A stretch of DNA of 64,000 nucleotides from Bacteroidota bacterium. GTDB lineage: Bacteria > Bacteroidota > Bacteroidia > 2-12-FULL-35-15. Shown here piece by piece: positions 31,601 through 47,566 of the stretch. The stretch lies in NCBI GenBank assembly GCA_947469885.1, contig CANIQT010000006.1, positions 62,001 to 126,000 on the forward strand, written 5' to 3'. Position numbers and translations under genes: made by a program. Each line of letters begins with the position of its first letter. Position 1 is the first letter of the stretch. Under the pieces are notes generated by a model. That model saw only the letters and a program-made list of their open reading frames with translations, was not told the origin of the DNA and did no database searches.

Positions 31601-32956
31601 TCAAATCTTATTTATTTTTTCCAGAATTTTTACCATTGCAAGAGTATCTAATTTGCAATATTCCAGCAGATTTTTTCTTTGGTGAATTTGAATTTCTTCT
31701 GTTTGATTTTTTAATTCAGAATACGTAAGACTTGCGCTACCTCCCTTCTGTATTGCCAAATCACTATAACTTAATTCTGGAACAAGAACTGGCAATACAT
31801 TTTTTATTGAATACGATTCATTAAAATCGGGGAGGTAGAACATTTTTTTTCTAAAAATAATCATTAGGTCAACCACTCTTTCAATCACCTCATAAATTTG
31901 TATCCGGTATTGTGGGAAATCTCTTGCAGTTTCTTTCAGTCGAGAAACTTCGAACGTTTTATTCCAACAAATTATTGTTCCTCTATTTCCAACAGACCCA
32001 AGTAAGCCCTTTATTAATGCTTCTCTTGGGTCACTAACTCCATCACCGAGAAATTCTTTGTGTTCAAGTTCCGAACCTTTGGTTCTCTGAATATGCAAAG
32101 AATATTGAAAAGGAATTTGTTGGTAAGGTCTGCTGATATTGAATTCTGGGACTGCTGGCATTATTGTTTCAAAGTCAAAATAAAATAAAGGATATTGTAG
32201 TTCGCTAAAGAATTCGTTCAAATATTCTTTGTTTATATACTCTTCACGTTCTGATTTTGTTTCTTGAACTTTCACATTCTTCCAACAATAGTCTGTAAAG
32301 TCACAAGGATAAGGGCTTTCGCAATGCTTACCAACTTCCACAACAGGCTCAATTCTGTCGGCAACTACTTTCTTTAATTCTTCAATCTTCGTTTCAATAA
32401 ATTTTTGTTGCTCCTTAACTTGAGTGTGAATAGATTGCTTCGTGAATAATTCCTGAACACTTATCTCTCCTCTTCTTACATATTGATTATTTAGATGAAC
32501 AATGAATATATCTTTAAGTTGTATTCCCGATTTTGTTATGACATGGTACTGTAATGCAGCATCCATAATATGTTGGCTCTTCACAGATGTAGTTCCTTTT
32601 ACTTCAAAGGCATACCATTTTTTACTGTTTTTTATAAGGACATCAATTGCACATAAAACACCGTTGTAGTTAAAACACGCTTCATATATAATGTTTGCGC
32701 CTTCTTTAATTAATTGCTGAGTTTTCGCAACAGAAAGATGATATGAAAACGCATCTGGTGGTTCTGCGTTAACGCCTCCACGGAAAAGTTCTTGCGCTAA
32801 AAGTCCTACATTTGTTCCTGAAGCAAAAATAGACTGCTGAGATTTATCTTCTTCATTTCGGACTTCAGGGCGAAACTTGTGCAGGTAGAGGCGTTTTGGA
32901 CACTGACACCCATAAACGAAGGTAGATTTTGAGAGTATGTGTTTTGTGTAATTCAT
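31601..32956 (-). CDS. DUF2779 protein: Cas4-like Fe-S nuclease plus RNase H-like domain
   Basis: 451 residues. The N-terminal CQCPKRLYLHKF (Cys 17, 19) and a later Cys group (CESPYPCDFTDYC) are placed as in Fe-S PD-(D/E)XK nucleases. Between them is a nuclease-like core (CAIDVLIKN then YAFEVKGTT). The C-terminal half starts with YFDFETIMP, a DEDD-type exonuclease motif, as in DUF2779 proteins. Likely a DNA-processing enzyme. A variant of the island's 26-bp promoter module lies 40 nt upstream (32997-33022). Confidence 0.75.
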   Translation of the reverse strand: MNYTKHILSKSTFVYGCQCPKRLYLHKFRPEVRNEEDKSQQSIFASGTNVGLLAQELFRGGVNAEPPDAFSYHLSVAKTQQLIKEGANIIYEACFNYNGVLCAIDVLIKNSKKWYAFEVKGTTSVKSQHIMDAALQYHVITKSGIQLKDIFIVHLNNQYVRRGEISVQELFTKQSIHTQVKEQQKFIETKIEELKKVVADRIEPVVEVGKHCESPYPCDFTDYCWKNVKVQETKSEREEYINKEYLNEFFSELQYPLFYFDFETIMPAVPEFNISRPYQQIPFQYSLHIQRTKGSELEHKEFLGDGVSDPREALIKGLLGSVGNRGTIICWNKTFEVSRLKETARDFPQYRIQIYEVIERVVDLMIIFRKKMFYLPDFNESYSIKNVLPVLVPELSYSDLAIQKGGSASLTYSELKNQTEEIQIHQRKNLLEYCKLDTLAMVKILEKINKI

Positions 32957-32996
32957 CAGATTTTATTTTTCAAAGATAGTTAGTTTTACTATATAT

Positions 32997-33022
32997 TATA
33001 GGTCAAAGAATGTAAAATAAAG
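32997..33022 (-). promoter_or_regulatory. Array promoter module, variant, before the DUF2779 gene
   Basis: GACCTATA replaces AACCTATA and the T-run is interrupted, but the 26-bp length and terminal C are kept. The start codon lies 40 nt downstream. Confidence 0.45.
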
Positions 33023-33076
33023 AAAACAAATACTTGAATATTCTCTTGTATTAGTAAACAAATCAAGGGCTTTGCC

Positions 33077-33820
33077 TTAAATACTATTTTGAATTAATTC
33101 ATTTGTTTGTAATGCTCTATTTAATAGCATCAGAACATTGCTTGGACGAAATAGTTTTCCACGACTACTTCTGAAACCTTCTGAATTTAGCTTATCTGCA
33201 ATTTGTTGAAGAGTGCTTCCCGAATTACGGAGAAGAATAATATACCCAGATGCCTTTCTATTATTATCATTTAAGGTTGCTAACTCTTTTCTTCTGTCTT
33301 TACCCTTTTTTATATTCTCTTCCGTTAATCCATGCTTGCTTGTATCACGCTTGAATCCTCTATCTTTAAGGGCTTTTAGAGCCGCCTTTGTTCTTTCTGA
33401 AATTCTCAATAATTCCTCCTCAGCTAAACTTGTTTTTAGTTTAACGATGAAAGCCGTATCGCTTGGTGCATCAGCAAATTCAAAGGTTATACCACTCTTA
33501 AGTAAAAATTCCATTAGTAGTGAATATCTTGTCAATCGTGAGCTTTCCTTTACTACTATTATTGCTCCATTTGTTTCTGCCAATTTCAAAGCATTAAGAA
33601 GAAGTGGACGTTTGGACAACAAACTTTCAATGCTTACTTGTTTGTCAACTGAAATTTTATCTTTTGAACCAGCTGTTTCAACTTCGGTGAAAGAATCAAT
33701 AATTTCTCCATTGACATTTTTGACATATTGCTCCACCGAAGATTTTTGCGCTTCGAGTCCAAGGTGAGAAATATTTTGTTTTACAGTTGATACCCGAAAA
33801 TAAGTGATGTATTTTTTCAT
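33077..33820 (-). CDS. Serine recombinase/resolvase
   Basis: 247 residues: resolvase N-terminal domain with YFRVS (nucleophile Ser 11), VVKESSRLTR and the long E helix region EEELLRISERTKAALKALKDRG, then a recombinase-type C-terminal helix-turn-helix (LRNSGSTLQQIADKLNSEGF). Could be a resolvase or an invertase of the island. No inverted repeats flanking a promoter are visible next to it, so its target is unknown. It carries the array promoter module 44 nt upstream. Confidence 0.85.
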   Translation of the reverse strand: MKKYITYFRVSTVKQNISHLGLEAQKSSVEQYVKNVNGEIIDSFTEVETAGSKDKISVDKQVSIESLLSKRPLLLNALKLAETNGAIIVVKESSRLTRYSLLMEFLLKSGITFEFADAPSDTAFIVKLKTSLAEEELLRISERTKAALKALKDRGFKRDTSKHGLTEENIKKGKDRRKELATLNDNNRKASGYIILLRNSGSTLQQIADKLNSEGFRSSRGKLFRPSNVLMLLNRALQTNELIQNSI

Positions 33821-33864
33821 TTCTTTAGTTTTACCAATAATAACTACGAACGTTATTATAATTG

Positions 33865-33890
33865 TATAGGTTTAAGAAACGAAAAAAAAG
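33865..33890 (-). promoter_or_regulatory. Array promoter module before the serine recombinase
   Basis: CTTTTTTTTC, spacer, AACCTATA. It sits 44 nt before the start, the longest leader in the set. Confidence 0.6.
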
Positions 33891-33915
33891 AAAGGGAATT
33901 AGTATTTTTAAGAAA

Positions 33916-33955
33916 TAAAAAAAACTGCAAATTTTATTTTGCAGCTTTTCTTTTT
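33916..33955. terminator. Bidirectional hairpin terminator
   Basis: CTGCAAA/TTTGCAG stem (33925-33944) flanked by an A-run on the left and a T-run on the right, so it can stop transcription in both directions. It ends the 34015-34158 unit. Confidence 0.6.
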
Positions 33956-34004
33956 AATAATTACTTCAATAAATTTATGTGAGTGACTTTTCTGAAATCC
34001 TAAA

Positions 34005-34141
34005 CAACTATCATTTATAGTTTATTTTGCTTGTAAATGACAGTTGGTATTTTTTTGATTTTCTCATTTACTCCAAAACCCCTGTCTTTGCTACATTCTT
34101 GTTTTTTGCCAACTATCATTATTGTAGTAAGTGATAGTTGG
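34005..34141. repeat. Two inverted repeats built on CAACTATCA
   Basis: CAACTATCATTTA (34005-34017) faces TAAATGACAGTTG (34034-34046) with one mismatch. CCAACTATCA (34109-34118) faces TGATAGTTGG (34132-34141) perfectly across a 13-nt loop. All four arms share the same core. They lie inside the small unit 34015-34158 and could form RNA hairpins or protein sites. Confidence 0.75.
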
Positions 34142-34158
34142 TCTTTTTGGATGTTCAT
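34015..34158 (-). CDS. Possible 47-residue protein or structured small RNA
   Basis: A frame of 47 codons (starts MNIQKDQLSLTT) begins 10 nt after a full array promoter module and is bounded by hairpin terminators on both sides, so the unit is very likely transcribed. The same stretch contains two CAACTATCA inverted repeats, which makes a structured non-coding RNA equally possible. No family recognised. Confidence 0.4.
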   Translation of the reverse strand: MNIQKDQLSLTTIMIVGKKQECSKDRGFGVNEKIKKIPTVIYKQNKL

Positions 34159-34168
34159 TTTTTAGGAT

Positions 34169-34194
34169 TATAGGTTGGAAAAATCCGAAAAAAG
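34169..34194 (-). promoter_or_regulatory. Array promoter module before the 34015-34158 unit
   Basis: Full match (CTTTTTTC, N10, AACCTATA); start codon 10 nt downstream. Confidence 0.6.
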
Positions 34195-34220
34195 AATTGT
34201 GTTCTTAAATTGTAAACAAA

Positions 34221-34252
34221 AAAAAGCAGCAAATTTTATTTAGCTGCTTTTT
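34221..34252. terminator. Perfect 10-bp hairpin terminator
   Basis: AAAAAGCAGC pairs with GCTGCTTTTT around a 12-nt loop; the A/T-runs make it work on both strands. It closes the gene at 34276-34809. Confidence 0.75.
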
Positions 34253-34275
34253 ATAAACTGAATGTAAAAATGTAA

Positions 34276-34809
34276 TTAGATGATTCCTGGACTTAACTCG
34301 AAAACAAATTTCCTATTTTCTTCTTCTCCCACCGATTTGAAATATCCTATCGGTTTTTCTTTGTCCTCAAAATAAACTCGGATTGGTTTTTCCTTTTTGT
34401 AGTCTAGAATAAATACATCAAGGCATGGACTTGTCTTGTAGCAGTAGTATTTACGGAGGTCAAATAAGTGATTGAAATCATATTTTTTATTATAAGTATT
34501 AATTACAAGCATTATTTCAGCGATATTTTTATACCTAAAACCCAATTGAATTAGATGTAATGCTTCAACAAAATATTTAATATTAAGGAGCTTGGAGTAA
34601 ATGTGGCACACACAATTTTCTGCAACTCTTCGATTCTTAACAAAGATTCTTCCTAATTTTGAGGAACGAGTATTTATCTCAATACCGTATCTGTTGCCCC
34701 TTCTGATAAGCATCACCCAGAGCTGTTCTCTCTCATTAAAATATAATTCTTTCTCTTCAATTATGCTTAATTCATCTGTCATACATTCTTTCATTTTCTT
34801 GTGGTTCAA
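34276..34809 (-). CDS. Unknown array protein, 177 residues
   Basis: Soluble protein with no recognised family; central aromatic/basic segment (KYFVEALHLIQLGFRYKNIAE) and acidic C-terminus. It lacks its own promoter module and starts 3 nt after the gene at 34813-35109, with which it forms a two-gene unit, one of the few real operons in the array. Confidence 0.6.
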   Translation of the reverse strand: MNHKKMKECMTDELSIIEEKELYFNEREQLWVMLIRRGNRYGIEINTRSSKLGRIFVKNRRVAENCVCHIYSKLLNIKYFVEALHLIQLGFRYKNIAEIMLVINTYNKKYDFNHLFDLRKYYCYKTSPCLDVFILDYKKEKPIRVYFEDKEKPIGYFKSVGEEENRKFVFELSPGII

Positions 34810-34812
34810 TTT

Positions 34813-35109
34813 TTATTTGAATTGGTTCAATTTAAAAAATCCAAAATCTAATATGGCCTCGTCATAGCATATCACAGATTTCATTTCTTTTGATAAGGGC
34901 TTCATTTCATTTTCAAGAGCATTTTCCCAATTCGTTTTCCTGTGTTTCCTATAAAACTCTACCGCCCATTTTCCAATTTCCTCAACCGTGGAAATGTAAC
35001 CCGTTCCTCTTTTTTGCATTTCTTCATACAGTTTTTCTGTGAAATGGTCTCCGAGGATAACCGCTATCATAGCTACTTCTGCAAGTTCCTGTGATTTTTT
35101 CATTTTCAT
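34813..35109 (-). CDS. Unknown array protein, 98 residues
   Basis: Helical, Lys/Glu-rich; contains EVAMIAVILGDHFTEKLYEEMQ and a YRKHRKTNWENAL segment. No family recognised. A promoter module lies 7 nt before the start, and the downstream 177-residue gene is coupled to it. Confidence 0.6.
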   Translation of the reverse strand: MKMKKSQELAEVAMIAVILGDHFTEKLYEEMQKRGTGYISTVEEIGKWAVEFYRKHRKTNWENALENEMKPLSKEMKSVICYDEAILDFGFFKLNQFK

Positions 35110-35116
35110 TTTCTAA

Positions 35117-35142
35117 TATAGGTTAGTGATTCCTGAAAAAAG
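35117..35142 (-). promoter_or_regulatory. Array promoter module
   Basis: Full match; 7 nt before the start at 35109. Confidence 0.6.
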
Positions 35143-35146
35143 AAAA

Positions 35147-35488
35147 CTATCTACCCTTCACTTCATCCCAAACTTCTTTCAAAGTTTTTTCTCCAACTGG
35201 AAAATGTATATCCCTCTCTATTTTCAATCCCAGTGGCAATTCCACATTCGCCAATTCCTCCAAAGATATTGTTCCAATCTCAGCATAGGCAGGGTCATTC
35301 AAAAGACAAAAAGCCATGTAAATATCTTCCTCAATATGTTCGTATATCCACCAAGTTGCCATTCCGCAAGGGTTGAAGAGCTTGCAGATAATTTTAATTT
35401 CGCTCATTGATTTATCACCAGTGTAACCTTGCGCTGCAAAAGCCTTCTCAATAAATGCTGGAATTAGTTTTTTGAGTTTGTCGTTCAT
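35147..35488 (-). CDS. Unknown array protein, 113 residues (DUF6908-like composition)
   Basis: Acidic alpha/beta protein; the stretch KLFNPCGMATWWIYEHIEED followed by DPAYAEIGTISLEELANVELPLGLKIERD resembles small plasmid and mobile-element proteins of the DUF6908/DUF2958 kind, which is a weak resemblance only. Promoter module 10 nt upstream. Confidence 0.6.
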   Translation of the reverse strand: MNDKLKKLIPAFIEKAFAAQGYTGDKSMSEIKIICKLFNPCGMATWWIYEHIEEDIYMAFCLLNDPAYAEIGTISLEELANVELPLGLKIERDIHFPVGEKTLKEVWDEVKGR

Positions 35489-35498
35489 TCTTTTAAGT

Positions 35499-35524
35499 TA
35501 TAGGTTATGGAGGTAGAAAAAAAG
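35499..35524 (-). promoter_or_regulatory. Array promoter module
   Basis: Full match; 10 nt before the start at 35488. Confidence 0.6.
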
Positions 35525-35526
35525 AA

Positions 35527-35805
35527 TTATCTGTATTGGTATTTACTTAGAACTTCATAATCTTCTTTTGAAATAGCTTCGCAAGTATTTAGTTTTACAG
35601 CCACTTCACCTCCATTGAATAACCACCATTTATCATCAGGAGAATATTTGAATGCCTTTCCTCCATAAAATTCTTTAGTGTATTTTTCTCCAAATACCTG
35701 TGTGCTTTTTCTCGTGGAAATCTCATGGACTGATTGAGATGAGTATTCATACTCGCCATTGCGAATGGTTAGGTTCAGGAATACATATTTAGTTTTTTGT
35801 TTCAT
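35527..35805 (-). CDS. Unknown array protein, 92 residues
   Basis: Beta-rich small protein (VFLNLTIRNGEYEYSSQSVHE, KWWLFNGGEVAVKLN). No family recognised. Own promoter module 18 nt upstream; its stop lies 2 nt from the next module, so genes and modules are tightly packed. Confidence 0.6.
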   Translation of the reverse strand: MKQKTKYVFLNLTIRNGEYEYSSQSVHEISTRKSTQVFGEKYTKEFYGGKAFKYSPDDKWWLFNGGEVAVKLNTCEAISKEDYEVLSKYQYR

Positions 35806-35823
35806 TCAGGATATTCTTTATTT

Positions 35824-35849
35824 TATAGGTTTGTGATTGTAGAAAAAAG
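35824..35849 (-). promoter_or_regulatory. Array promoter module
   Basis: Full match; 18 nt before the start at 35805. Confidence 0.6.
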
Positions 35850-35852
35850 ATT

Positions 35853-36119
35853 TTAGTAAGTAGTAGTAATCGCAATTGTAAAATCCCTTACTTCTTCTTC
35901 ACCCTCTACAACAAGGTTTGCAGTAAAATCCAGAGGGGCTTGGTTAGTCAGAACTTCATTGCTTGGCACAAATACGCTGTCTGCGTTGTAGTGCTCCTGA
36001 ATTGCTGTTTGTAACTTTCCTCTTATTTCATCTTTTGCTTTGCATTAAATAATTGCTATAATTTCACCTTCAGTACTTATCAGAACTGCGTTTGATTTTC
36101 CGAATAAATTTGTCGTCAT
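35853..36119 (-). pseudogene. Array gene interrupted by an in-frame TAA
   Basis: Reading from the ATG at 36119, 11 nt after a full promoter module, gives 24 codons, a TAA at 36045-36047, then 63 further codons without a stop, ending at TAC-TAA just before the next module. Composition stays protein-like after the stop (AKDEIRGKLQTAIQEHYNAD, and an IAITTTY end). No in-frame Met follows, so reinitiation is unlikely. One base change (for example from CAA, GAA or AAA) explains it. Family unknown; the second half resembles a small beta-rich protein. Confidence 0.7.
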
Positions 36120-36130
36120 TTCTTTATTGT

Positions 36131-36156
36131 TATAGGTTGGTGAATAAGAAAAAAAG
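36131..36156 (-). promoter_or_regulatory. Array promoter module before the interrupted gene
   Basis: Full match, undamaged although the gene it serves is broken; start 11 nt downstream. Confidence 0.6.
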
Positions 36157-36158
36157 AT

Positions 36159-36431
36159 TTATGATTTCACTGTTGTGCCTTGTTCTCTCAATGGAGATTC
36201 TTGTTGCCCATTCCTTACCATCAAATCAAATTTTGATTTTGCCTTTTCAAAAGTTGTGAAAAGTCCATTAGAGCAAAAGGGACTTTTGGTAGTTTCATGG
36301 ACTGCATAAGAAATTCCGTTTTTGTACGGTTTGTTCAATTTTATTAGATTCACATGGCTTCCGTCTACAAAATTCGCAAACTCAATCAAGGGGCTGTTAA
36401 AAACTCTTTTTGGTAATATTAGATAACTCAT
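36159..36431 (-). CDS. Unknown array protein, 90 residues
   Basis: Mixed alpha/beta, no family recognised; contains FVDGSHVNLIKLNKPYKNG and a short Gln/Arg/Ser-rich tail. Promoter module 17 nt upstream. Confidence 0.6.
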   Translation of the reverse strand: MSYLILPKRVFNSPLIEFANFVDGSHVNLIKLNKPYKNGISYAVHETTKSPFCSNGLFTTFEKAKSKFDLMVRNGQQESPLREQGTTVKS

Positions 36432-36448
36432 TTATGGTTTGTATTTAA

Positions 36449-36474
36449 TATAGGTTGTGTAATAGAGAAAAAAT
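36449..36474 (-). promoter_or_regulatory. Array promoter module
   Basis: Match with A instead of C at the outer end of the T-run; start 17 nt downstream at 36431. Confidence 0.55.
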
Positions 36475-36485
36475 AAAGTGAGAGG

Positions 36486-36809
36486 TTAAACCAAGCGAAG
36501 CTCCAATCTCATTTCCTCGAAAGAACGCTCTAAGCCAATCCAACAATTTGAACCTCCTGTGTAGTCTTTCATATCTTTGGCGGTACGAAACATCAAATTT
36601 TTATCACCATTGTGCCAACTGAAGTAAAAACATTTGTCCCCTTTGTAGAAAAAGCCAGAGAGGTAAAAATGCCCAGTATTAAAGTCCCGAAGTTCTGCAC
36701 CCACTTTCTTCAGTTCTGCCTTTATTTGCTTCTTAAAATCCTTTGCAAATGCAATAAATTCGGGTGTTTTGTAAGAACTTTGCTCAAAATTTGTTTTTGT
36801 GAATTTCAT
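36486..36809 (-). CDS. Unknown array protein, family A copy 1 (107 residues)
   Basis: Highly similar to 39038-39349: both begin MKF..TNFEQSSYKTPEFIAFAK and share HFYLSGFFYKG, YFSWHNGD and YTGGSNCW/FTGGSNCW. The fold is unknown; strands rich in aromatic residues suggest a compact alpha/beta domain. Promoter module 5 nt upstream of the start. Confidence 0.7.
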   Translation of the reverse strand: MKFTKTNFEQSSYKTPEFIAFAKDFKKQIKAELKKVGAELRDFNTGHFYLSGFFYKGDKCFYFSWHNGDKNLMFRTAKDMKDYTGGSNCWIGLERSFEEMRLELRLV

Positions 36810-36814
36810 ATTTA

Positions 36815-36840
36815 TATAGGTTGTCTTTTGAGATAAAAAG
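36815..36840 (-). promoter_or_regulatory. Array promoter module
   Basis: Match with an interrupted T-run (CTTTTTATC); 5 nt before the start at 36809. Confidence 0.55.
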
Positions 36841-36846
36841 AAATAG

Positions 36847-37107
36847 TTATTTTTTATTGCCCTTCACTATTGCATTTAATAACTTCAGAATGTTTTTATA
36901 AGTCTTTTTCATTTCAAAAGCGTTCATTTCCTCCCATATCTTTACCCTCACTTTACAGTCAAAATTGTTGTCCTTTTCAAAATAATAAATCAAATCTTTT
37001 AAGTCCCAAAAACGGTCATGTTTTTTGCTACTCGTTTGTTTTACTCCTTCAGTCATATACTTGGCTATTTTTTCTAAATCACTTGGTTTTTTAATTTTTA
37101 ATGCCAT
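36847..37107 (-). CDS. Unknown array protein, family B copy 1 (86 residues)
   Basis: Paralogue of 38362-38622; both begin MALKIKKP, share DRFWD-KDL, DYKVRVKIW-like and FEM-KTYKNILKLL, and end with EGNKK/KGNKK. Helical, basic. The frame stays open upstream to 37281, but the paralogue, and a promoter module 23 nt before 37107, fix the start at 37107. Confidence 0.7.
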   Translation of the reverse strand: MALKIKKPSDLEKIAKYMTEGVKQTSSKKHDRFWDLKDLIYYFEKDNNFDCKVRVKIWEEMNAFEMKKTYKNILKLLNAIVKGNKK

Positions 37108-37130
37108 TTCTTTGTATTTGTGTTTTGACT

Positions 37131-37156
37131 TATAGGTTGAAGAAAAAAAATAAAAG
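37131..37156 (-). promoter_or_regulatory. Array promoter module
   Basis: AACCTATA intact, T-run extended toward the box; 23 nt before the start at 37107. Confidence 0.55.
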
Positions 37157-37281
37157 AAAATTAAGATTTCACAGTCCTTTACCTTTATTGCTTCTTCATC
37201 GCATTGTTTTGAAAAACTGCAAATCATCTTACCATTTTCCAAGAATAGTATTTTGTACTTTTTATTTGAATTCATCTTCAA
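37156..37281 (-). other. Possible small frame coupled to the 79-residue gene and open into family B
   Basis: An ATG at 37281 overlaps the last codons of the preceding gene and opens a frame (MNSNKKYKILFLENGKM) that has lost any stop before the next module; it runs through the module into 36847-37107. About 40 codons look protein-like, then the translation becomes Phe/Tyr-rich as it crosses the T-run. Either a decayed small gene or a coding remnant fused by chance. Confidence 0.3.
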
Positions 37282-37501
37282 ATTGCGTTAAAATTAATTT
37301 CTCTAAATCTGCTGAATTGACTGGTGTTTCATCAATCCAAAAAACTTCTCTTGCAGATGAACCAGAGTTTGAATCATTCATTTCACACGCACAAAACATA
37401 AAACTTTTGTCGGCTTGTTTAACTTGACCATAGTGCCACGTCCAGCCAACACGAGTCCTCTTGTCTGAATTTTCTCTATCAAATTTTATTGTTGATTTCA
37501 T
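37262..37501 (-). CDS. Unknown array protein, 79 residues
   Basis: Acidic, with GWTWHYGQVKQADKSFMFCACE and a C-terminal ADLEKLILTQFEDEFK helix. No family recognised. Promoter module 5 nt before the start. Confidence 0.6.
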   Translation of the reverse strand: MKSTIKFDRENSDKRTRVGWTWHYGQVKQADKSFMFCACEMNDSNSGSSAREVFWIDETPVNSADLEKLILTQFEDEFK

Positions 37502-37506
37502 ATTTT

Positions 37507-37532
37507 TATAGGTTGGGTATTTTGAAAAAAAG
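37507..37532 (-). promoter_or_regulatory. Array promoter module
   Basis: Full match; 5 nt before the start at 37501. Confidence 0.6.
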
Positions 37533-37556
37533 AATTATCAGCTGTTGAAGATTTCC

Positions 37557-37820
37557 CTAAAACTGGATAAGTAAATACTTAAATCCTTTCAATTGCTTTC
37601 TGAGGTTATCCATCTTCAATCTGGTATCATAATTTATTCCTTTTCCACGGGTTTGAAGTTGGCTTACTTTGTAGAGCTTTACATTTTTATTGAAGTCAGT
37701 ATCGCCTATTTCATTTCCTGAAATATCTTCAAGAACATCTGATGGCAATTGCGATTCGTGCAGATAGGCAGTTGCTTCAAATCTGTACTTTTTGTTATAC
37801 CAAGTTGATTTCTTTGTCAT
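37557..37820 (-). CDS. Unknown array protein, 87 residues
   Basis: Basic protein starting MTKKSTWYNKKYRFEATAYL; acidic middle (DVLEDISGNEIGDTDFN) and a basic amphipathic end. No family recognised. Promoter module 5 nt upstream. Confidence 0.6.
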   Translation of the reverse strand: MTKKSTWYNKKYRFEATAYLHESQLPSDVLEDISGNEIGDTDFNKNVKLYKVSQLQTRGKGINYDTRLKMDNLRKQLKGFKYLLIQF

Positions 37821-37825
37821 ATTTC

Positions 37826-37851
37826 TATAGGTTATTTAATAAGAAAAAATG
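37826..37851 (-). promoter_or_regulatory. Array promoter module
   Basis: Near-full match; 5 nt before the start at 37820. Its T-run directly follows the hairpin at 37852-37881, so it may also serve as that terminator's U-tract. Confidence 0.6.
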
Positions 37852-37881
37852 AAGGGGCTGAATTGTTTTAATTCGCCCTTT
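37852..37881 (-). terminator. Hairpin terminator of the 137-residue gene, abutting the next promoter
   Basis: AAGGGGCTGAATT pairs with AATTCGCCCTTT (one bulge). On the minus strand the hairpin is followed by ATTTTTTC, which belongs to the next promoter module. Confidence 0.6.
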
Positions 37882-37911
37882 CAATTATAAAGAAACACAC
37901 AACTTAATAAT

Positions 37912-38325
37912 TTATATTTGATGGTTGCATCTAAGGTATTCCTCTGCATTCATCATTATTTCTCGGTACTTCTTTCCTCCATTCTTATAATAAACACCAT
38001 TAAGATTTGCAGGTGTTGAATGTGTATTCCGCTTATCAACTTGCGAAACGTGAACGTAGGAAACATCAGTGCATAGTGAATCTCCAGCCATTAATTCCTC
38101 GGCTATTTCATCTGTTATTTCTTTTTCAGCATAACTGTAAAGTGGAATCAGTGTGTACGATGGAGCAAGTTCGCAGCAGAAGGTTTGTTCGTTTGCATTA
38201 TACATATATACTCCGAATATCTTTCCACAAGCCTCGGCAATATCTTCTCTCCAGTTCCTTGTTTCCTCGATTGAAACAATTCTGAAGTCTGTCCTTTTTG
38301 CTTTATTTATTATTTCTGATTCCAT
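37912..38325 (-). CDS. Unknown array protein, 137 residues
   Basis: Acidic protein with two Cys clusters in the middle (QTFCCELAPSY, DSLCTDVSYVHVSQ) and a final EEYLRCNH. No family recognised. Promoter module 5 nt before the start. Confidence 0.6.
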   Translation of the reverse strand: MESEIINKAKRTDFRIVSIEETRNWREDIAEACGKIFGVYMYNANEQTFCCELAPSYTLIPLYSYAEKEITDEIAEELMAGDSLCTDVSYVHVSQVDKRNTHSTPANLNGVYYKNGGKKYREIMMNAEEYLRCNHQI

Positions 38326-38330
38326 GTTAT

Positions 38331-38356
38331 TATAGGTAAGAGAATCCGAAAAAAAG
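38331..38356 (-). promoter_or_regulatory. Array promoter module
   Basis: TACCTATA variant; 5 nt before the start at 38325. Confidence 0.6.
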
Positions 38357-38361
38357 AATAG

Positions 38362-38622
38362 TTATTTTTTGTTTCCTTCTACTATTTTTTCCAATAACTT
38401 CAATATGTTTTTATAAGTCTTCGGCATCTCAAATGCTTTCATTTCATCCCATATCTTTACTCTAACTTTATAGTCAAACCCATTGTCATTCTCAAAATGA
38501 GCAACCAAATCTTTCATGTCCCAAAAACGGTCAAGTTTTTTATTGCTTATCTGCTTTAATGCCTGTGCCATGAATTTGGCAATCGCTTCCAAGTCTTTCG
38601 GTTTCTTAATTTTTAGTGCCAT
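38362..38622 (-). CDS. Unknown array protein, family B copy 2 (86 residues)
   Basis: Paralogue of 36847-37107 (see there); helical, with FMAQALKQISNKKLDRFWD and FEMPKTYKNILKLLEKIV. Promoter module 13 nt upstream. Start supported by alignment with copy 1. Confidence 0.7.
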   Translation of the reverse strand: MALKIKKPKDLEAIAKFMAQALKQISNKKLDRFWDMKDLVAHFENDNGFDYKVRVKIWDEMKAFEMPKTYKNILKLLEKIVEGNKK

Positions 38623-38635
38623 TTGTTTTTTTAGT

Positions 38636-38661
38636 TATAGGTTAGAGTTTCAGAAAAAAAA
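38636..38661 (-). promoter_or_regulatory. Array promoter module
   Basis: Full AACCTATA with long T-run; 13 nt before the start at 38622. Confidence 0.6.
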
Positions 38662-38669
38662 CAACTATC

Positions 38670-39002
38670 TTAAAACGAATAACACTCCTTGTTTATTGAG
38701 AATGTAATATCCCCAATGGTATCAACTTTTTCATCTATTAAACGAACAAGGGAGCTTTGCAGTGTGGAAAGTGATTTGTATTTTTGGTACTTCATACCTT
38801 TGTTAGTCCTTGCCCAAAGATTAGCGGGAAATGAACTAATTTTACAATCTACCTCACTATGCGTTTTTAAAACAACGTGGAACCAATAACCTTTATCGGA
38901 TAAGTGAATATTGATTTGTGCGGTTTCTTGTTTGTATAAGTCTTCAAGTGTTACACCTAAAGAAGCTAAAGAATTAAGAATTTTTAGTTTTGTCTTTTTC
39001 AT
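38670..39002 (-). CDS. Unknown array protein, 110 residues
   Basis: Starts MKKTKLKILNSLASLGVTLEDL; has a beta-rich middle (INIHLSDKGYWFHVVLKTHS) and a helical end. An upstream in-frame Met at 39026 exists, but translating from it would read through the promoter box, so 39002 is chosen. No family recognised. Confidence 0.65.
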   Translation of the reverse strand: MKKTKLKILNSLASLGVTLEDLYKQETAQINIHLSDKGYWFHVVLKTHSEVDCKISSFPANLWARTNKGMKYQKYKSLSTLQSSLVRLIDEKVDTIGDITFSINKECYSF

Positions 39003-39007
39003 GTTCT

Positions 39008-39033
39008 TATAGGTAGGAGTTTCCAAAAAAAAG
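39008..39033 (-). promoter_or_regulatory. Array promoter module
   Basis: TACCTATA variant with an uninterrupted T-run; 5 nt before the start at 39002. Confidence 0.6.
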
Positions 39034-39037
39034 AATC

Positions 39038-39349
39038 TTATTTTAATCTCATTTGCTCAAACGAGTCTCCCAGTTTCATCCAACAATTCGACCCACCAGT
39101 AAAATCTCTAGTGTCCTTTGCTGTGCGATACATTAAATTGCTATCTCCATTGTGCCAACTGAAATAATAACACTGTTCGCCTTTGTAAAAGAAACCAGAA
39201 AGATAGAAGTGTCCAACATTAAACGAATTAAGTTCCGCACCGACTTTATTTAATTCAGCTTTAATTTGCTTCTTAAATTCTTTTGCAAACGCTATAAATT
39301 CGGGAGTTTTATATGAACTTTGCTCAAAGTTCGTTTGTGAAAATTTCAT
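39038..39349 (-). CDS. Unknown array protein, family A copy 2 (103 residues)
   Basis: Paralogue of 36486-36809 with roughly three quarters identical residues. Conserved features: NFEQSSYKTPEF, LSGFFYKG, SWHNGD and GGSNCW with one Cys. Promoter module 14 nt upstream. Confidence 0.7.
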   Translation of the reverse strand: MKFSQTNFEQSSYKTPEFIAFAKEFKKQIKAELNKVGAELNSFNVGHFYLSGFFYKGEQCYYFSWHNGDSNLMYRTAKDTRDFTGGSNCWMKLGDSFEQMRLK

Positions 39350-39363
39350 TTTTATTTTATTAT

Positions 39364-39389
39364 TATAGGTTGGCTTTTCGGAAAAAAAG
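39364..39389 (-). promoter_or_regulatory. Array promoter module
   Basis: Full match; 14 nt before the start at 39349. Confidence 0.6.
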
Positions 39390-39413
39390 AATTGGGAATA
39401 TTATTTCCCTTTC

Positions 39414-39983
39414 CTAAATTCTTGTATAATCAATCTTTTCCTTTCGGCTTTCCACTTTGTATCCTTGTTCCGTAAAACCTTTAATTATCTTGTTAATATT
39501 ACGGTTCGTTGAATTGTGGTTTCTTCCAGTTGATTGAATAAGTCCAGACAATTTGGTATCCGAAATAGCAATGTAAATCCCAACCTGATATGGTTGCGTA
39601 ACAATATTTATTTTATGATTTCCTTTGCGAATGCTTACTGTACGATACAATTTAATTGAACGGTCCTTGGCTGTTTTTTCTTTTTCTTCAATTTCTTTAG
39701 CCAACTTTTCCGCATCAGCAACAGCTCTTTTGTCCTGTGCGTATGCAATTGCCTTTGGCAACCACATTTCTATTTGCTTAATTTTGTTCTCAAGGAATTG
39801 TTGCATTCCTTCAATTCCTGCTTCATAAACTTTTGAGAATTTGTTAGTAAAACGAAGCCAGTCCCCTTCATAGTTATCAAGAGACACGCAGATTGTTTCG
39901 CTTCCAACAACAATCCAAGCAATGATAATTGTTCCATTAAAATTAAATCGGTGGTTTCCAGAAACAGTGTTTAAGTATGTCAT
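39414..39983 (-). CDS. Unknown array protein with central coiled coil, 189 residues
   Basis: N-terminal beta-rich part (NHRFNFNGTIIIAWIVVGS), a charged coiled coil (ADAEKLAKEIEEKEKTAKDR, about 88-107) and a C-terminal basic domain. No family recognised. Promoter module 17 nt upstream. The longest single-gene unit in the array. Confidence 0.6.
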   Translation of the reverse strand: MTYLNTVSGNHRFNFNGTIIIAWIVVGSETICVSLDNYEGDWLRFTNKFSKVYEAGIEGMQQFLENKIKQIEMWLPKAIAYAQDKRAVADAEKLAKEIEEKEKTAKDRSIKLYRTVSIRKGNHKINIVTQPYQVGIYIAISDTKLSGLIQSTGRNHNSTNRNINKIIKGFTEQGYKVESRKEKIDYTRI

Positions 39984-40000
39984 CTTCTTTCGTTTTATTT

Positions 40001-40026
40001 TATAGGTTGAAAGAAGGAGAAAAAAG
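40001..40026 (-). promoter_or_regulatory. Array promoter module
   Basis: Full match; 17 nt before the start at 39983. Confidence 0.6.
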
Positions 40027-40031
40027 ATGCC

Positions 40032-40490
40032 CTACTCAAAAGGGCTGGTGGCAAGGTGTTCCAGAATTACTTTAACAGTGTCGTTTTCTATTGTACAATG
40101 AATTACAACCTTCCTCCTTGTTGCCATTATTGAAGCATTGGAGTAGGTCAAAATTATTACACCATATTCTGTGTTGATGTTACAGAGGTTTCCAAGCACA
40201 TAATCAAACTTGAAATTAATTTTATAATAGCTCAATATTGTCTCCCTTCCATATTTATTAATGGTTTGAGATGCAGTAAACGCCAACATATTATTGTACT
40301 GGTTATTTCTGTATACGTTTTGAAAGAATTGCCTAGCAGAAGAACCAAATATCATTGCAGGATTTGAATAGGGCTTTACCGACACGTGCACTTGCTCTAT
40401 TGGAATATCTGTGATTGGCTGCTCTATTGTCTTGGTTGAGCAACCAAAGAAGAATAAGCATAAAATAAAAATGCAAGTTTTGAATTTCAT
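40032..40490 (-). CDS. Unknown lipoprotein of the array, 152 residues
   Basis: The only array product with an export signal: a hydrophobic start and lipobox FFFGC (Cys 17) followed by STKT. The mature part has no recognised family. Surface lipoproteins on mobile elements can act in entry exclusion; that is inference from location only. Promoter module 17 nt upstream, divergent from ardC. Confidence 0.65.
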   Translation of the reverse strand: MKFKTCIFILCLFFFGCSTKTIEQPITDIPIEQVHVSVKPYSNPAMIFGSSARQFFQNVYRNNQYNNMLAFTASQTINKYGRETILSYYKINFKFDYVLGNLCNINTEYGVIILTYSNASIMATRRKVVIHCTIENDTVKVILEHLATSPFE

Positions 40491-40507
40491 TTCGGAATTT
40501 TTTTTCT

Positions 40508-40533
40508 TATAGGTTGTGTTAATGCAAAAAAAG
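40508..40533 (-). promoter_or_regulatory. Array promoter module (left arm of divergent pair)
   Basis: Full match driving the lipoprotein gene, 17 nt before its start at 40490. Confidence 0.6.
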
Positions 40534-40547
40534 AATAGAAGTATTCT
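40532..40547. repeat. Palindrome between the two divergent promoter modules
   Basis: AGAATA, a 4-nt centre, TATTCT: the two oppositely directed modules abut this symmetric element at their T-run ends. Confidence 0.6.
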
Positions 40548-40549
40548 TT

Positions 40550-40575
40550 CTTTTTTTTCAAACAGCCAACCTATA
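40550..40575 (+). promoter_or_regulatory. Array promoter module on the plus strand, before ardC
   Basis: CTTTTTTTTC-N8-AACCTATA, identical in layout and 26-bp length to the minus-strand copies; 14 nt before the ATG at 40590. It shows that the module is oriented with the gene it serves. Confidence 0.65.
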
Positions 40576-40589
40576 ACCCAAAAAGAAAT

Positions 40590-41459
40590 ATGAAAACATC
40601 TGATGTATATTCAATGGTAACAGACCGAATTATTAGCAAGTTGAATTCTGGTATAGTTCCATGGGAGCGTGGCTATAGTTCAGTTGCTCCCCAAAACTTT
40701 ATTACAAAGAAACCTTATAGGGGAATTAATTACTGGATAACTGTGTGTAACAATCATAGCTCTCCCTTCTACCTTTCCTTCAAGCAGGTCAAGGAACTTG
40801 GAGGTTCTGTAAAAGCAGGAGAGAAGGGAACTCCCATTGTTTATTGGCAAATCCTCGAAAAACAAAATAGAAATGCCGATGGAATTCTTGAAAAGAAAAC
40901 TATTCCGCTATTGAAATATTACACTGTATTTAATGCTGAACAAACTACAGGTATTGATTTTCCAGTTATAGAAAATAAAGTTCCGAACATAACCTCGTTG
41001 GATAAAGTCCTTCAAAATATGTTAGATAAGCCAACCATCAGAGAAGGTCAAAGCTATTCCCCTTCCTATGTTCCAGTGCTTGATGAAATACGGATGCCTT
41101 TGAAAAATAATTATCACTCAGCAGGACGTTACTATAAAACATTATTCCACGAGCTTGCCCATAGTACTGGAGCCTCAAAGAGGTTAAATCGTGATGGGAT
41201 AGCAAAGTTTGACAGATTTGGGTCTGAGCAATATTCATTGGAGGAATTGATTGCAGAACTTGCTGCAAGCTTTGCTATTAATTATGCTGGGCTTGAAGAA
41301 GAAACAATTGATAATTCTGTAGCCTATATACAGGGCTGGCTTAAAGCATTGAAGAATGACAATAAATTAATTTTTACTGCTGCTAAACAAGCGGAGAAAG
41401 CGTGGAAATTTATTAATAACGAAATCGAAATAGGAGAATCGAAGAAGGAAGCAGCATGA
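40590..41459 (+). CDS. ardC: ArdC-like anti-restriction protein (ssDNA-binding domain plus zincin)
   Basis: 289 residues: N-terminal ArdC/DUF1738 ssDNA-binding domain (VPWERGY, KPYRGINYW, KEKGTPIVYW-like strand) and a C-terminal metallopeptidase domain with HELAH (187-191) and a likely third ligand in EELIAEL (about 223). ArdC proteins protect incoming conjugative DNA from restriction. It is the only array-type unit on the plus strand and shares the array promoter, linking the unknown genes to DNA entry. Confidence 0.85.
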   Translation: MKTSDVYSMVTDRIISKLNSGIVPWERGYSSVAPQNFITKKPYRGINYWITVCNNHSSPFYLSFKQVKELGGSVKAGEKGTPIVYWQILEKQNRNADGILEKKTIPLLKYYTVFNAEQTTGIDFPVIENKVPNITSLDKVLQNMLDKPTIREGQSYSPSYVPVLDEIRMPLKNNYHSAGRYYKTLFHELAHSTGASKRLNRDGIAKFDRFGSEQYSLEELIAELAASFAINYAGLEEETIDNSVAYIQGWLKALKNDNKLIFTAAKQAEKAWKFINNEIEIGESKKEAA

Positions 41460-41716: not shown

Positions 41717-42007
41717 ATGCTCAAACTAAAACTACTTTATCTTTTTATCAGAACCATTAATTTCTTTTATTCAAATGTAGGATACCGAATTTTGCATTCT
41801 TTTTTCGCAGCTATATTTGGCTATTGTTTTGGGTACTGGAATTTCTATTACCTCTCCCTCAGAATGGTTTATTTCCTTTTTTGTTACTTTCTATTTTTAG
41901 AATTTGTAAGCATTTTATTTTTTAACCCTAAAATAAGTTACAGATTAGGCTTGCAAATATTAGAGGAAATTAAAGAACAAATTGAGAGAAAAAGGCAAAA
42001 GAATTAA
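41717..42007 (+). CDS. Small membrane protein of unknown function
   Basis: 96 residues, aromatic-rich, with about three hydrophobic stretches up to residue 72 and a charged helical tail (EEIKEQIERKRQKN). No family recognised and no array promoter module. It overlaps the opposing gene by 4 bp. Confidence 0.5.
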   Translation: MLKLKLLYLFIRTINFFYSNVGYRILHSFFAAIFGYCFGYWNFYYLSLRMVYFLFCYFLFLEFVSILFFNPKISYRLGLQILEEIKEQIERKRQKN

Positions 42008-42357
42008 CGGTTCGCATCAGATACTTTTCGCCAGAAGGAAAGACAAAAATCTGTCTGGTAATATGTTCTGTTTTTATACTTGTAAATCGGCACGTTATTT
42101 AATGTCTTTAACAGCCTGTGAAGGTTGGTAGAAGGAAGCATAGCTATTTCACAAAAGCTGCTCCAGTCAAAAAAATAGTCGGTTACAGTCCCATCGTTAA
42201 CATAAAGCATCGGAAAAGAACATTTCATTTGGTTGTTGGAATTTATTTCTATTGCCATTTTTTTATCTATAAATAGTATAAAAAATTCCCTTCCTGGCGA
42301 TTTTAGAATAATTTCGTTGGTTGAATTTTTAAATTTGAAACGGCTCCCAATCTCCAC
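42004..42357 (-). CDS. Unknown protein, 117 residues
   Basis: Beta-rich N-terminal half (FKFKNSTNEIILKSPGREFFI) and a helix-turn-helix-like stretch (SSFCEIAMLPSTNLHRLLKTLNN, partial). The latter could be a DNA-binding segment, but I do not recognise a family. Confidence 0.5.
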   Translation of the reverse strand: MEIGSRFKFKNSTNEIILKSPGREFFILFIDKKMAIEINSNNQMKCSFPMLYVNDGTVTDYFFDWSSFCEIAMLPSTNLHRLLKTLNNVPIYKYKNRTYYQTDFCLSFWRKVSDANR

Positions 42358-43408: not shown

Positions 43409-43640
43409 TATAATCGCTTTCTTTCTTTTCTCCTTAAAAAAGGATAAGATGTGTATAAGGTATTAGCACTTTCTTTGTTTTCTCATTTAAAAAGGATAAG
43501 GTGTGTATAAGTTATTAGCACTTTCTTTCTTTTCTCTTTAAAAAAGGATAAGGTGTGTATAAAGTATAATCACTTTCTTCTTTTCTCCTTTAAAAAGGAT
43601 AAGGTGTGTACAAGGTATTACCACTTTCTTTCTTTTCAGC
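43409..43640. repeat. 52-bp direct repeats, about 4.5 copies
   Basis: Successive units of about 52 bp share ACTTTCTTTCTTTTCTC followed by TTTAAAAAAGGATAAGGTGT and GTATAAGGTATTA-like bases; the last unit is cut after the pyrimidine tract. Flanking 43306-43408 is pyrimidine-rich. Position upstream of a candidate replication protein makes these iteron-like, but function is unproven. Not a CRISPR: there are no unique spacers. Confidence 0.85.
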
Positions 43641-43867: not shown

Positions 43868-45706
43868 ATGGAAATAAATTTTAATAAAACAGAAACAATG
43901 GAATTGGGGTTAATGAACAACTTTAATGTGGGTTATGATATTACATATAACCCAAATAAACCTATTAAGGTTTTTAATAAATCAGCAAAAATGGAGTTGG
44001 ATTTAATGAACAACATGAATATTGGGAATAATCAAATCTATATACCTTGGGAATTATGTTCCGCATTTAATAAATCAGAAATATTAGAGAAAGAGTCAAG
44101 TAACAAATTTAATAAGGACTATAATGTCATTTATGAATCAAATGAAACTAAAGTTGTAGCAAATCAAATATCAAATCAATTAAGTCAATTTAATAAACTT
44201 AATACTAATTCAATGTTTTGTTTGCTCCCAAAAGAAGAAATTCCAATAATAGCAAGTATTGTAGAGGAAAATGATAGGGATGTTTCTGCGCAACTTGCGC
44301 TATTTTACGAAACCGATTACAGTATATTAATTCCTAAGAAAACCGAATACGTAGTAAGGAAATATCTTGACACTGATACTTTAGAATCAATACACCCAGA
44401 TGGAGAAACTGCAATTGAACTTTGCCTTTTAATGCTTAGTAATTTGACTGACACCTATTTCAGGATGCAGGGGCTTATCTATGAATCAGGGGATAATTAT
44501 TGGGAATACCGCAGCATTGAAACAGAACTGGATGGATGGAAGTCTCTTTACTCTGTAAATTTGAGGCAACAACTACTTTATTCAGATAATACTTATATAA
44601 AGGTGAGGGAAGCTTTATGTGAGGGAACAAATAATGGCCCGATAATGGAATGTGATTATGTAAAAGAAATTGATGAGAAGTGCTATTTATATCGCCTGGG
44701 AGACAATTATCGTGGCAGAGGAGTGGAAACCTATCAAATTAAGTCAGAGTTCGTCCAAGGGCTTTTTAAAAGGCAACATGACCATAAAATAGATGGATGC
44801 CTCAGAAATCCTATTGCCAGAAATTTATTGATAATGCAAGAGAGAATAACGCTCCCTACAAAGCAGGAAATTATCAAAGAAGCCAAAAGGTTAATAAAAT
44901 TAGGGCATAAGACAAAAAGCGGCAAGCGGCTTACATTCCTTAACAAACATACAAAAGAATATTTTAAAGACCATGAAAACAGGAGTTTTGTGGAAGACAG
45001 TCTAAAAATATTTGACTACTTAACCCAGAAGAATGGGCTCTGGACACCGCACATTGGTGGAGAAGGTAGTGGGGGAAGGATAGTTGATTCATTTACATTA
45101 ATGCCCTCTTGGATTCGTAACTTATGCCTGATTAATGGAAAAAAACTGACAGAAGTTGACTATTGCTGCCTTCACCCTAATATTGCAATAAATACATACG
45201 AAGGGAATAAAGGTTTCATCACTCATAAGGCTGTTGCTGAAGAAATAAAATTTAGGGAATTGCTTGAGAACGTTGAGTTAGCGATACTATTAGAAGAAGA
45301 CAATATCACTTTACCTAAAACAAAAAAAGAAATTGAGGAAGAAAGTGAATTCCTTGCTCTGATAAAAGGGGAGCACCTATCTTTTTTTAACAAGGAATGG
45401 TATCAAATGATGCAATCCCCTCTATTTGATTATTACTCAGGGACAGAGCCGACAATGATGTCAAACATATACTTTGATAAGGCAGAGAGCGAATTTGGAC
45501 ACAAAGCAACATGCAGAAGACTTTTTAAGAAAGAAGTAGAAATAATGAGCGATGTGGTTAGCAGATTAAACGAAAGGGGAATATATGTTGGATACATCTA
45601 TGATGCCCTCTTTTGCACTCCAGAAGAAGCAGAGATAGTTAAAAATGTAATGGATGAAGTAGCTATGTTACACGGAGTGAAGACGACAGCAAAATATAAG
45701 TTATAA
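43868..45706 (+). CDS. Candidate replication protein with three 31-residue repeats and palm-like motifs
   Basis: 612 residues. Residues 5-97 are three repeats of exactly 31 residues, each starting FNK and, in the first two, followed by MEL-LMNN. The middle is helical. The C-terminal part has LTEVDYCCLHPNIAI (about 437-451), reminiscent of polymerase motif A (D-x-x-S-L-Y/H-P), and GIYVGYIYDALFCTPEE (about 575-591), like a motif C Asp in a hairpin. I do not recognise a named family; replication enzyme is inference from motifs plus upstream iteron-like repeats and structured leader. Confidence 0.5.
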   Translation: MEINFNKTETMELGLMNNFNVGYDITYNPNKPIKVFNKSAKMELDLMNNMNIGNNQIYIPWELCSAFNKSEILEKESSNKFNKDYNVIYESNETKVVANQISNQLSQFNKLNTNSMFCLLPKEEIPIIASIVEENDRDVSAQLALFYETDYSILIPKKTEYVVRKYLDTDTLESIHPDGETAIELCLLMLSNLTDTYFRMQGLIYESGDNYWEYRSIETELDGWKSLYSVNLRQQLLYSDNTYIKVREALCEGTNNGPIMECDYVKEIDEKCYLYRLGDNYRGRGVETYQIKSEFVQGLFKRQHDHKIDGCLRNPIARNLLIMQERITLPTKQEIIKEAKRLIKLGHKTKSGKRLTFLNKHTKEYFKDHENRSFVEDSLKIFDYLTQKNGLWTPHIGGEGSGGRIVDSFTLMPSWIRNLCLINGKKLTEVDYCCLHPNIAINTYEGNKGFITHKAVAEEIKFRELLENVELAILLEEDNITLPKTKKEIEEESEFLALIKGEHLSFFNKEWYQMMQSPLFDYYSGTEPTMMSNIYFDKAESEFGHKATCRRLFKKEVEIMSDVVSRLNERGIYVGYIYDALFCTPEEAEIVKNVMDEVAMLHGVKTTAKYKL

Positions 45707-45707
45707 G

Positions 45708-46052
45708 TTAACTGTTGTCGCCAAACCCCAATTCAGTAGTAATAAATACAGATTGAATCACGTTTACAAATATGTTTAAGCTGGCTCCTTTGCTAACCAA
45801 ATCTTCGTATTCACGAAGAATATAATTCGGTCTATTGTTGCTAATTGCGCTGAAGATAAGCTTACCACTTTCTGAATAGAAAAAGTTGTCTGTCTCCCCA
45901 TCCTCAAAGAATTCCCATGTGAGCACCCTGCAAGGTTGTTTCTTCCCTTCCTGTGTCATAATAAAACCGTCTGATACTTGTCCAATCTTATAGATTTTTC
46001 CTCTTCTCAGAAGGGCTACACTCCCACCGTCATTGCTTAAAATTTCTATCAT
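45708..46052 (-). CDS. Unknown protein, 114 residues
   Basis: Begins with a beta-rich barrel-like stretch (SVALLRRGKIYKIGQVSDGFI) and ends with a helix. No family recognised. Convergent with the 612-residue gene, one base apart. Confidence 0.5.
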   Translation of the reverse strand: MIEILSNDGGSVALLRRGKIYKIGQVSDGFIMTQEGKKQPCRVLTWEFFEDGETDNFFYSESGKLIFSAISNNRPNYILREYEDLVSKGASLNIFVNVIQSVFITTELGFGDNS

Positions 46053-47266: not shown

Positions 47267-47566
47267 TTACTTAAGGAGTGCAGGAACTAAATTGTTATTA
47301 AGGATGTCAATAATTTCCGCCTGTGGGTAAAAATAAGTTACTCCAAGTTTGGTGAATGGGATTTCCCTTTTGAATCTCATATCCTTTAATTTGTTTTCGG
47401 ATACGCCCAGAAATTTAAGAACTTCACGGGTTCTTAAATACTTTTTGGCTGGTGTTGCGGCTGGCTTGTATGCGGTTACAGCAGCCACTAATTGTTCAAC
47501 TTCTTTCCTGATTCTTTCTTCTGCCTGTTGCAGGTCTTGTTTTGTGGCAATTTCGTTTTGCGTCAT
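47267..47566 (-). CDS. Excisionase-like HTH protein with N-terminal coiled coil
   Basis: 99 residues: coiled coil (QQAEERIRKEVEQLVAAV), then a MerR/HTH_17-like winged domain (YLRTREVLKFLGVSENKLKDMR, in part, and ITFTKLGVTYFYPQAEIIDIL-like recognition segment). Proteins of this type act as recombination directionality factors beside Bacteroidetes integrases. It fits excision control here; function is inferred. Confidence 0.75.
   Translation of the reverse strand: MTQNEIATKQDLQQAEERIRKEVEQLVAAVTAYKPAATPAKKYLRTREVLKFLGVSENKLKDMRFKREIPFTKLGVTYFYPQAEIIDILNNNLVPALLK

Follow-up and report, generated by a model that had tools for sequence, protein, structure and literature searches.

ArdC is a known anti-restriction protein (PMC7213743), and conserved sequences before ardC defined establishment regulons on pLS20-type plasmids, as described in the available part of PMC8708921. 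Here we describe an arrangement that can be set beside these regulons, in a 64,000-nucleotide stretch of contig CANIQT010000006.1 of a Bacteroidota bacterium (hereafter the window; positions are counted from its first letter). An array of small genes on a presumed mobile island, adjoined by ardC, lies almost entirely behind copies of a module with the layout TTCTTTTTT-N12-ACCTATAA and a length of about 29 bp. On the evidence below, these modules are very probably promoters of a single non-host class that form an element-wide regulon.

The likeness to EGeRS1 and EGeRS2 of the pLS20 family lies in variable genes, ardC among them, that stand in scattered units on a mobile element behind similar upstream sequences (PMC8708921). 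EGeRS2 contains a promoter, and its plasmid encodes a regulator. In the same partial account, however, EGeRS1 is 420–750 bp long, GC-rich and structured, whereas the modules span 29 bp, are unstructured and are strongly conserved only between −20 and +8 of the box. EGeRS2 has TTATCCCnnTTATCCC ahead of its −35 element, and the modules do not: in the window this dual heptamer is absent at 0–1 mismatch, and at up to 3 mismatches it occurs 10 times against 5.97 expected, never at a module. The modules also differ in coming at nearly one copy per gene, in a different host phylum and on chromosomal islands. The parallel is thus functional, and by the sequence tests run the module set is not a member of those systems. 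Frpo of the F and ColIb-P9 leading regions, in the portion of PMC9849209 at hand, is likewise a common promoter-like sequence before early establishment genes, but it forms a hairpin, a structure that the modules lack, and the modules occupy both strands.

The module in the window and the host genome

Read on the minus strand, positions 32996–40576 present small genes, nearly all of them behind TTCTTTTTT, a spacer and RACCTATAA. A matrix built from 19 aligned copies recovered exactly those 19 in the 64 kb at a score of at least 13, all within 32996–40576; 18 are on the minus strand, counting the variant at 32996–33024, and one is on the plus strand, which agrees with the initial annotation (17 minus, one plus and a variant at 32997). 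The window sites score 25.5–36.6 with this matrix, which was derived from the same sites, and none reached 18 in random first-order sequence of island composition (2 Mb, one strand). The strict pattern CTTTTTTN{8,12}AACCTATA matched 11 times in the window against 0.00 expected, always at 26 bp; the variable gap of N8 to N12 thus returned a single length. AACCTATA alone matched 18 times against 2.02 expected, with 16 of the 18 inside the array.

The conserved unit in the 19 window copies runs from −20 to +8 of the box, 29 bp with 17 positions of at least 0.8 bit, so that the 26-bp length given earlier holds for the strict matches and falls short of the whole unit. The 20 bases upstream of −20 carry no further conservation in these copies, and downstream of +8 there is mainly A-richness. 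The initial annotation had called the copies identical over dozens of bases, which was an overstatement: the cores are common to the copies and the spacers differ, and the first letter of the box varies (A 30, G 27, T 6, other 3). This last count covers 66 modules from eight loci in seven genomes, sites scoring below 17 being left out. All 66 align gaplessly, partly by construction, as a gapless matrix found them. Their DNA gave no hairpin signal on folding (mean z 0.10; 0 of 65 below −2).

We compared the array with the 4.07-Mb genome that carries it. The strict pattern gave 12 matches, 11 of them in the array, against 1 for the reversed control, and the relaxed pattern gave 13, of which 12 were in the array, against 5. 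Upstream of host tRNA genes, TAnnTTTG was found in 21 of 29 cases and CCTATA in none of the 29. Around the modules, TAnnTTTG occurred within −30 to +40 of 4 of the 66, never at the box itself, and in 100 of 2000 random 99-mers. The rarity outside the array and the contrast at the tRNA genes together indicate that the module is neither the housekeeping promoter of the host nor dispersed over host genes. The earlier proposals that the module departs from the standard Bacteroidota promoter, and that it marks a regulon confined to the mobile island, are therefore upheld, the latter also by its recurrence in related loci; a module equally frequent before ordinary chromosomal genes, which would have counted against the idea, was not what the genome-wide motif search found.

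Promoter signature and related loci

The distance from the last A of TATA to the ATG has a sharp lower edge. Its minimum is 5 nt, seen in 11 of 60 genes; no gene has 0–4 or 6 nt, and the others have 7 or more, up to 64 nt. The pile-up at 5 nt (p = 4.8e-5 after correction for 25 positions, against a uniform spread) is as leaderless transcription would leave it. Taking the first base of the ATG as +1 in this class puts the ACCTATAA octamer between −12 and −5 and TTCTTTTTT between −33 and −25. The same prediction was then read on the modules outside the 5-nt class, namely 53 of the 66 sites after setting aside one without flank, one duplicate and the 11 of that class. The predicted +1 is A in 44 of the 53 and the next base in 43, against about 50% further downstream. 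Within leader bases only, A fills the two predicted start positions in 79 of 94 cases and other positions in 418 of 824 (Fisher 1.3e-10). The bases at +1 and +2 played no part in finding the modules; the p-values are optimistic, because the sites partly share ancestry (23 related gene pairs).

The predicted geometry can be set against the sigma-A promoter of Bacteroidota, for which the available text of PMC6847099 and PMC9723704 gives TTTG at −33 and TAnnTTTG at −7. Promoters of F. johnsoniae have an element at −12 to −5 and a gap of 4–5 nt to the start (PMC6847099, in part). If the predicted +1 is right, the module elements would fit this spacing of about −33 and −7 with 4–5 nt to the start, and their predicted positions and gap coincide with those of sigma-A promoters; the letters differ, with ACCTATAA in place of TAnnTTTG and a T-run in place of TTTG. 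Two independent signs, the pile-up at the ATG and the A at the predicted +1, support the promoter reading first put forward in the initial annotation.

Six further genomes have related gene clusters with this layout, as the search of other Bacteroidota suggested earlier has now brought out. (G numbers denote genomes and L numbers loci of the comparison set.) Of 395 genomes of the class that were searched, the pattern is present in 11: three (G000, G025 and G026, the last of the same genus as the window) with 8–10 copies each and eight with one copy; by our count, the reversed pattern matches in 20 of the same 395. One of the eight single-copy genomes, G305, of another family, has a pair of divergent modules at a related locus. 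Three others (G258, G401 and G409) have one module-like match each in the neighbourhood and no array, and the remaining four have no array within the 3-kb loci scanned. Single matches in G036, G081, G084, G097 and G098 likewise lie in 3-kb loci without an array. G022, from outside the 395-genome draw, carries modules on two contigs. A search of genome contigs with an alignment of the helix-turn-helix (HTH) protein discussed below returned three loci, one of them that of G026 and two new ones with 7 and 5 modules (score at least 17). With the relaxed pattern, G026 has 9 matches, all on the array contig (control 1); G025 has 7, one of them elsewhere (control 0); G022 has 10, three of them off the array contig (control 9); and G305 has 3, one of them elsewhere (control 0).

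Counting ATG frames of 40 codons or more, 60 genes stand behind the modules of all loci; they fall into 44 sequence families, 34 of which are singletons and most of which are without a name. Six of the 66 modules lack such a frame within 130 nt; one of these is at a contig end and one fronts the broken frame of the window. In the 23 related gene pairs the module core is 95% identical and the spacer 46%, against 93% and 41% in unrelated pairs. Divergent module pairs are 10–12 bp apart in the window, G025, G022 and L099, 77 bp in G026 and 33 bp in G305; none was seen in L098. Six of the eight loci have recombinase genes, recognised in the window, G026 and G022 by Pfam or BLAST and in the other three by eye.

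Candidate readers of the module

A small winged-helix-like core protein of the element, HTH (42004–42258, minus strand), is the candidate reader of the modules. Its gene stands behind a second promoter-like box, box B (CTATTTATA; 42268–42276, minus strand). The form [CA]TATTTAT[AT] is found 6–15 nt before the ATG in 7 of 7 HTH genes, six from module-bearing loci and one from G078. Genes of a second family, A2, lie near HTH in related loci, and box B precedes 5 of 11 of them, the others having only variants; the A2 gene of the window (45708–46052, minus strand) has only the variant TAATTATA upstream. Among 251 ATG frames of nine loci, box B lies within 34 nt upstream of 10, nine of which are HTH or A2 genes, in a count that missed three of the seven HTH cases because the longer frame was kept. 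Across the 60 module genes, TATTTAT appears in that upstream range only once, at the A2 gene of L020, which has a module; the A2 gene of L099 has GACCTATA without the T-run. In 12 box B sites, the fourth base after the box is A in 11 and the fifth in all 12. These patterns hint at two promoter classes with a common TATA core, imperfectly separated. In G078, locus L107 has A2 (9174–9524) and HTH (9825–10079) with box B; tyrosine recombinase-like frames (by eye) come directly after them, and there is no module array. The weak similarities to HTH in G201, G265 and G496 (E about 4e-4, with internal stops) were treated as chance, and a covariation of HTH type with the first letter of the box was not clean and was dropped. 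No HTH relatives were found in viral contigs, nor in plasmids or phages, where one HTH protein served as query.

A sigma factor and another type of regulator are retained as alternatives for what reads the modules. We tentatively favor the HTH protein as an activator, since it is the best candidate; it adjoins the module pair in G305, a locus that was met by pattern first, and of three new loci reached by way of HTH, two carry modules. Two observations weigh against it: one genome has HTH without modules, and another has modules without an HTH match. The absence of HTH beside the modules of G022 fits rather a host alternative sigma factor, for example of the extracytoplasmic function (ECF) type, from whose regulon the elements would borrow a signal without encoding a factor of their own, a possibility that we consider doubtful but serious. 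In its favor, the geometry predicted for the modules is the one a holoenzyme promoter would have, and the subset of element proteins that was scanned contained no sigma factor. F. psychrophilum has 7 ECF sigma factors, not every one of which has assigned promoters in the part of PMC9723704 at hand. A host factor, however, would be expected to serve host genes, and the near-absence of the module there (outside the array, 1 match against 5 in the reversed control with the relaxed pattern, and 1 against 1 with the strict one) weighs against it; nor is the module among the six motif classes that this part of PMC9723704 describes for F. psychrophilum.

Other readings fare worse. The modules might act in RNA, each tuning the translation or stability of its cistron from a promoter further upstream; 47 of the 60 lie 5–24 nt before the ATG, pyrimidine-rich stretches ahead of an A-rich leader. 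That reading is improbable given distances of up to 64 nt, with two recombinase copies at 44 nt, two asymmetric blocks at fixed spacing, the A at the predicted +1, and the fact that the 20 bases preceding the 19 window copies contain nothing else conserved that could act as promoter. We give about as little credit to the idea that the modules are cassette recombination sites, at which the neighboring serine recombinase inserts or swaps genes. The array lies mostly on one strand with one module per gene, order and content differ between loci, and a serine recombinase stands at the array end in both the window and G026. Yet related genes keep the core and not the spacer, the start signature is promoter-like, and no recombinase was seen, by eye, among the frames of the short G305 contig or the 4.3-kb G022 contig. 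Integron attC sites have an inverted-repeat structure; the folding z of the modules, a general measure rather than an attC model, gave no signal. Frpo-type promoters, which work during the single-stranded phase of the transferred strand, would suit ardC and small genes without a name, as in plasmid leading regions (PMC9849209, in part); they are very unlikely here, as the modules lack a hairpin by the same z values and stand back to back on both strands, whereas one strand enters. The least likely reader is an element protein of 612 aa (43868–45706, plus strand). Its C-terminal half resembles, by eye, the palm of a family A polymerase, with no library match. The protein has no Pfam match at the cut-off and no NCBIfam or PDB match, and we dropped it as a reader because tblastn at E 1 found no counterpart in 15 loci, including the G026 protein first paired with it.

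An element-encoded activator would have a counterpart in the middle promoters of phage T4, where an activator box near −30, that of MotA, replaces the −35 element. The modules share the box near −30 and the set of co-regulated small genes, but no module array was found in viral contigs: 45 stretches have one exact match each, and the matrix at a score of at least 13 gives none with more than two sites.

The array, its island and a proposed programme

The plus-strand module (40548–40576, predicted +1 at 40581) precedes the ArdC gene (40590–41459, plus strand; ArdcN and MPTase-PolyVal domain match), ardC being the only recognised anti-restriction family here. Back to back with it, at 12 bp, is the module (40507–40535) of a lipoprotein-like gene (40032–40490), which like the other modules and genes of the array is on the minus strand. 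The modules of five genes belong to the 5-nt class: 39007–39035, whose gene with ATG at 39002 is predicted to be leaderless, 38330–38358 (gene 37912–38325), 37825–37853 (37557–37820), 37506–37534 (37262–37501) and 36814–36842 (family A, 36486–36809). Further matrix sites are 40000–40028 (gene 39414–39983), 39363–39391 (family A, 39038–39349), 38635–38663 (family B, 38362–38622), 37130–37158 (family B, ATG at 37107), 36448–36476 (36159–36431), 35823–35851 (35527–35805), 35498–35526 (DUF2958, 35147–35488) and 33864–33892 (serine recombinase, 33077–33820). A small gene of 47 aa (34015–34158; module 34168–34196) is 89% identical in the G026 locus. The paralogues 36486–36809 and 39038–39349 are 80% identical, and 36850–37107 and 38362–38622 are 73% identical; every copy in both pairs has its own module.

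The expectation that nearly every small gene has its own copy thus holds across the array, with two departures. Gene 34276–34809 (A3 family) has none and follows 34813–35109, whose module (35116–35144) probably serves both. Module 36130–36158 precedes an ATG at 36119 whose frame (35855–36119) meets a TAA after 24 codons and is then open for at least 63 more, possibly a decayed array gene.

At the serine recombinase gene, an inverted repeat, ATAATAAC...GTTATTAT (33837–33859), begins at the predicted +1; it is unchanged in the G026 locus and resembles an operator or a recombination site. The array ends with a DUF2779/RNase H-like protein with a weak Cas4-like stretch (31601–32956), behind the variant module (32996–33024) and a host-type TAnnTTTG between module and ATG. 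Its G026 copy is 82% identical and has the same upstream layout; in L099, too, a module precedes a gene that by eye is nuclease-like.

The island contains, besides ArdC, DUF2958, the serine recombinase and the DUF2779 nuclease-like protein, a tyrosine integrase (48354–49631, minus strand) adjoining tRNA-Ser (49916–50005) and an excisionase-type HTH_17 protein (47267–47566, minus strand). The integrase scores 22.2 bits against an integron integrase model with a cut-off of 265. In a search for an attachment site, the window showed no second copy, in the same orientation, of any word of at least 14 bases from the tRNA-Ser region, and the presumed island ends share no word of 10–20 bases except one of 10; the limits of the element are therefore presumed. 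The flank of tRNA-Ser and a transporter matched in 36 of 36 genomes of the genus, many over the tRNA only. Just upstream of the 612-aa protein lie 52-bp tandem repeats (43417–43637, 4.3 copies), and in the G026 locus repeats of 69 bp (3.4 copies) precede a 545-aa protein that shows no BLAST similarity to the 612-aa one. Could these pairs of repeats and protein be iteron-like replication modules?

The sequence itself shows the motif and its geometry, its near-confinement to these loci, the A at the predicted +1, the better conservation of the core than of the spacer, and box B; transcription from the modules, the HTH protein as activator, and timing and purpose are inferred. RNA polymerase with a specificity factor other than the usual host one would make two contacts, with TTCTTTTTT (about −33 to −25) and with ACCTATAA (−12 to −5), and would start at an A six bases after TATA; in about one-fifth of module genes the start codon itself would be the first base of a leaderless mRNA. 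With an own copy before nearly every cargo gene, the gene set could grow, shrink or change its order and stay within the regulon. As HTH genes and some A2 genes have a different box, the element probably has two promoter classes, and the core (HTH and A2) would control the cargo. A burst of establishment or anti-defence products, ArdC being one, would presumably follow entry or mobilisation; that the regulon serves such genes is likely, judging by ardC. The most complete version is a speculative one: a two-tier, host-orthogonal system in which a CTATTTATA-driven core gives rise to a small factor by which RNA polymerase is redirected to the module promoters, many of them yielding leaderless mRNAs, so that captured genes join the regulon at once.

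Taken together, the evidence suggests that this family of mobile elements has a transcription programme of its own. We found no description of the module in open-licence papers of PubMed Central (PMC), and as far as that literature shows, such a regulon would be new for Bacteroidota. If the proposal is true, the module would be a sequence tag for candidate establishment and anti-defence genes in mobile elements of Bacteroidota, with 44 families already in hand; its promoter specificity, nearly absent from the host, might serve as an orthogonal part; and the array would offer a simple model for the common control of a modular gene set on mobile elements.

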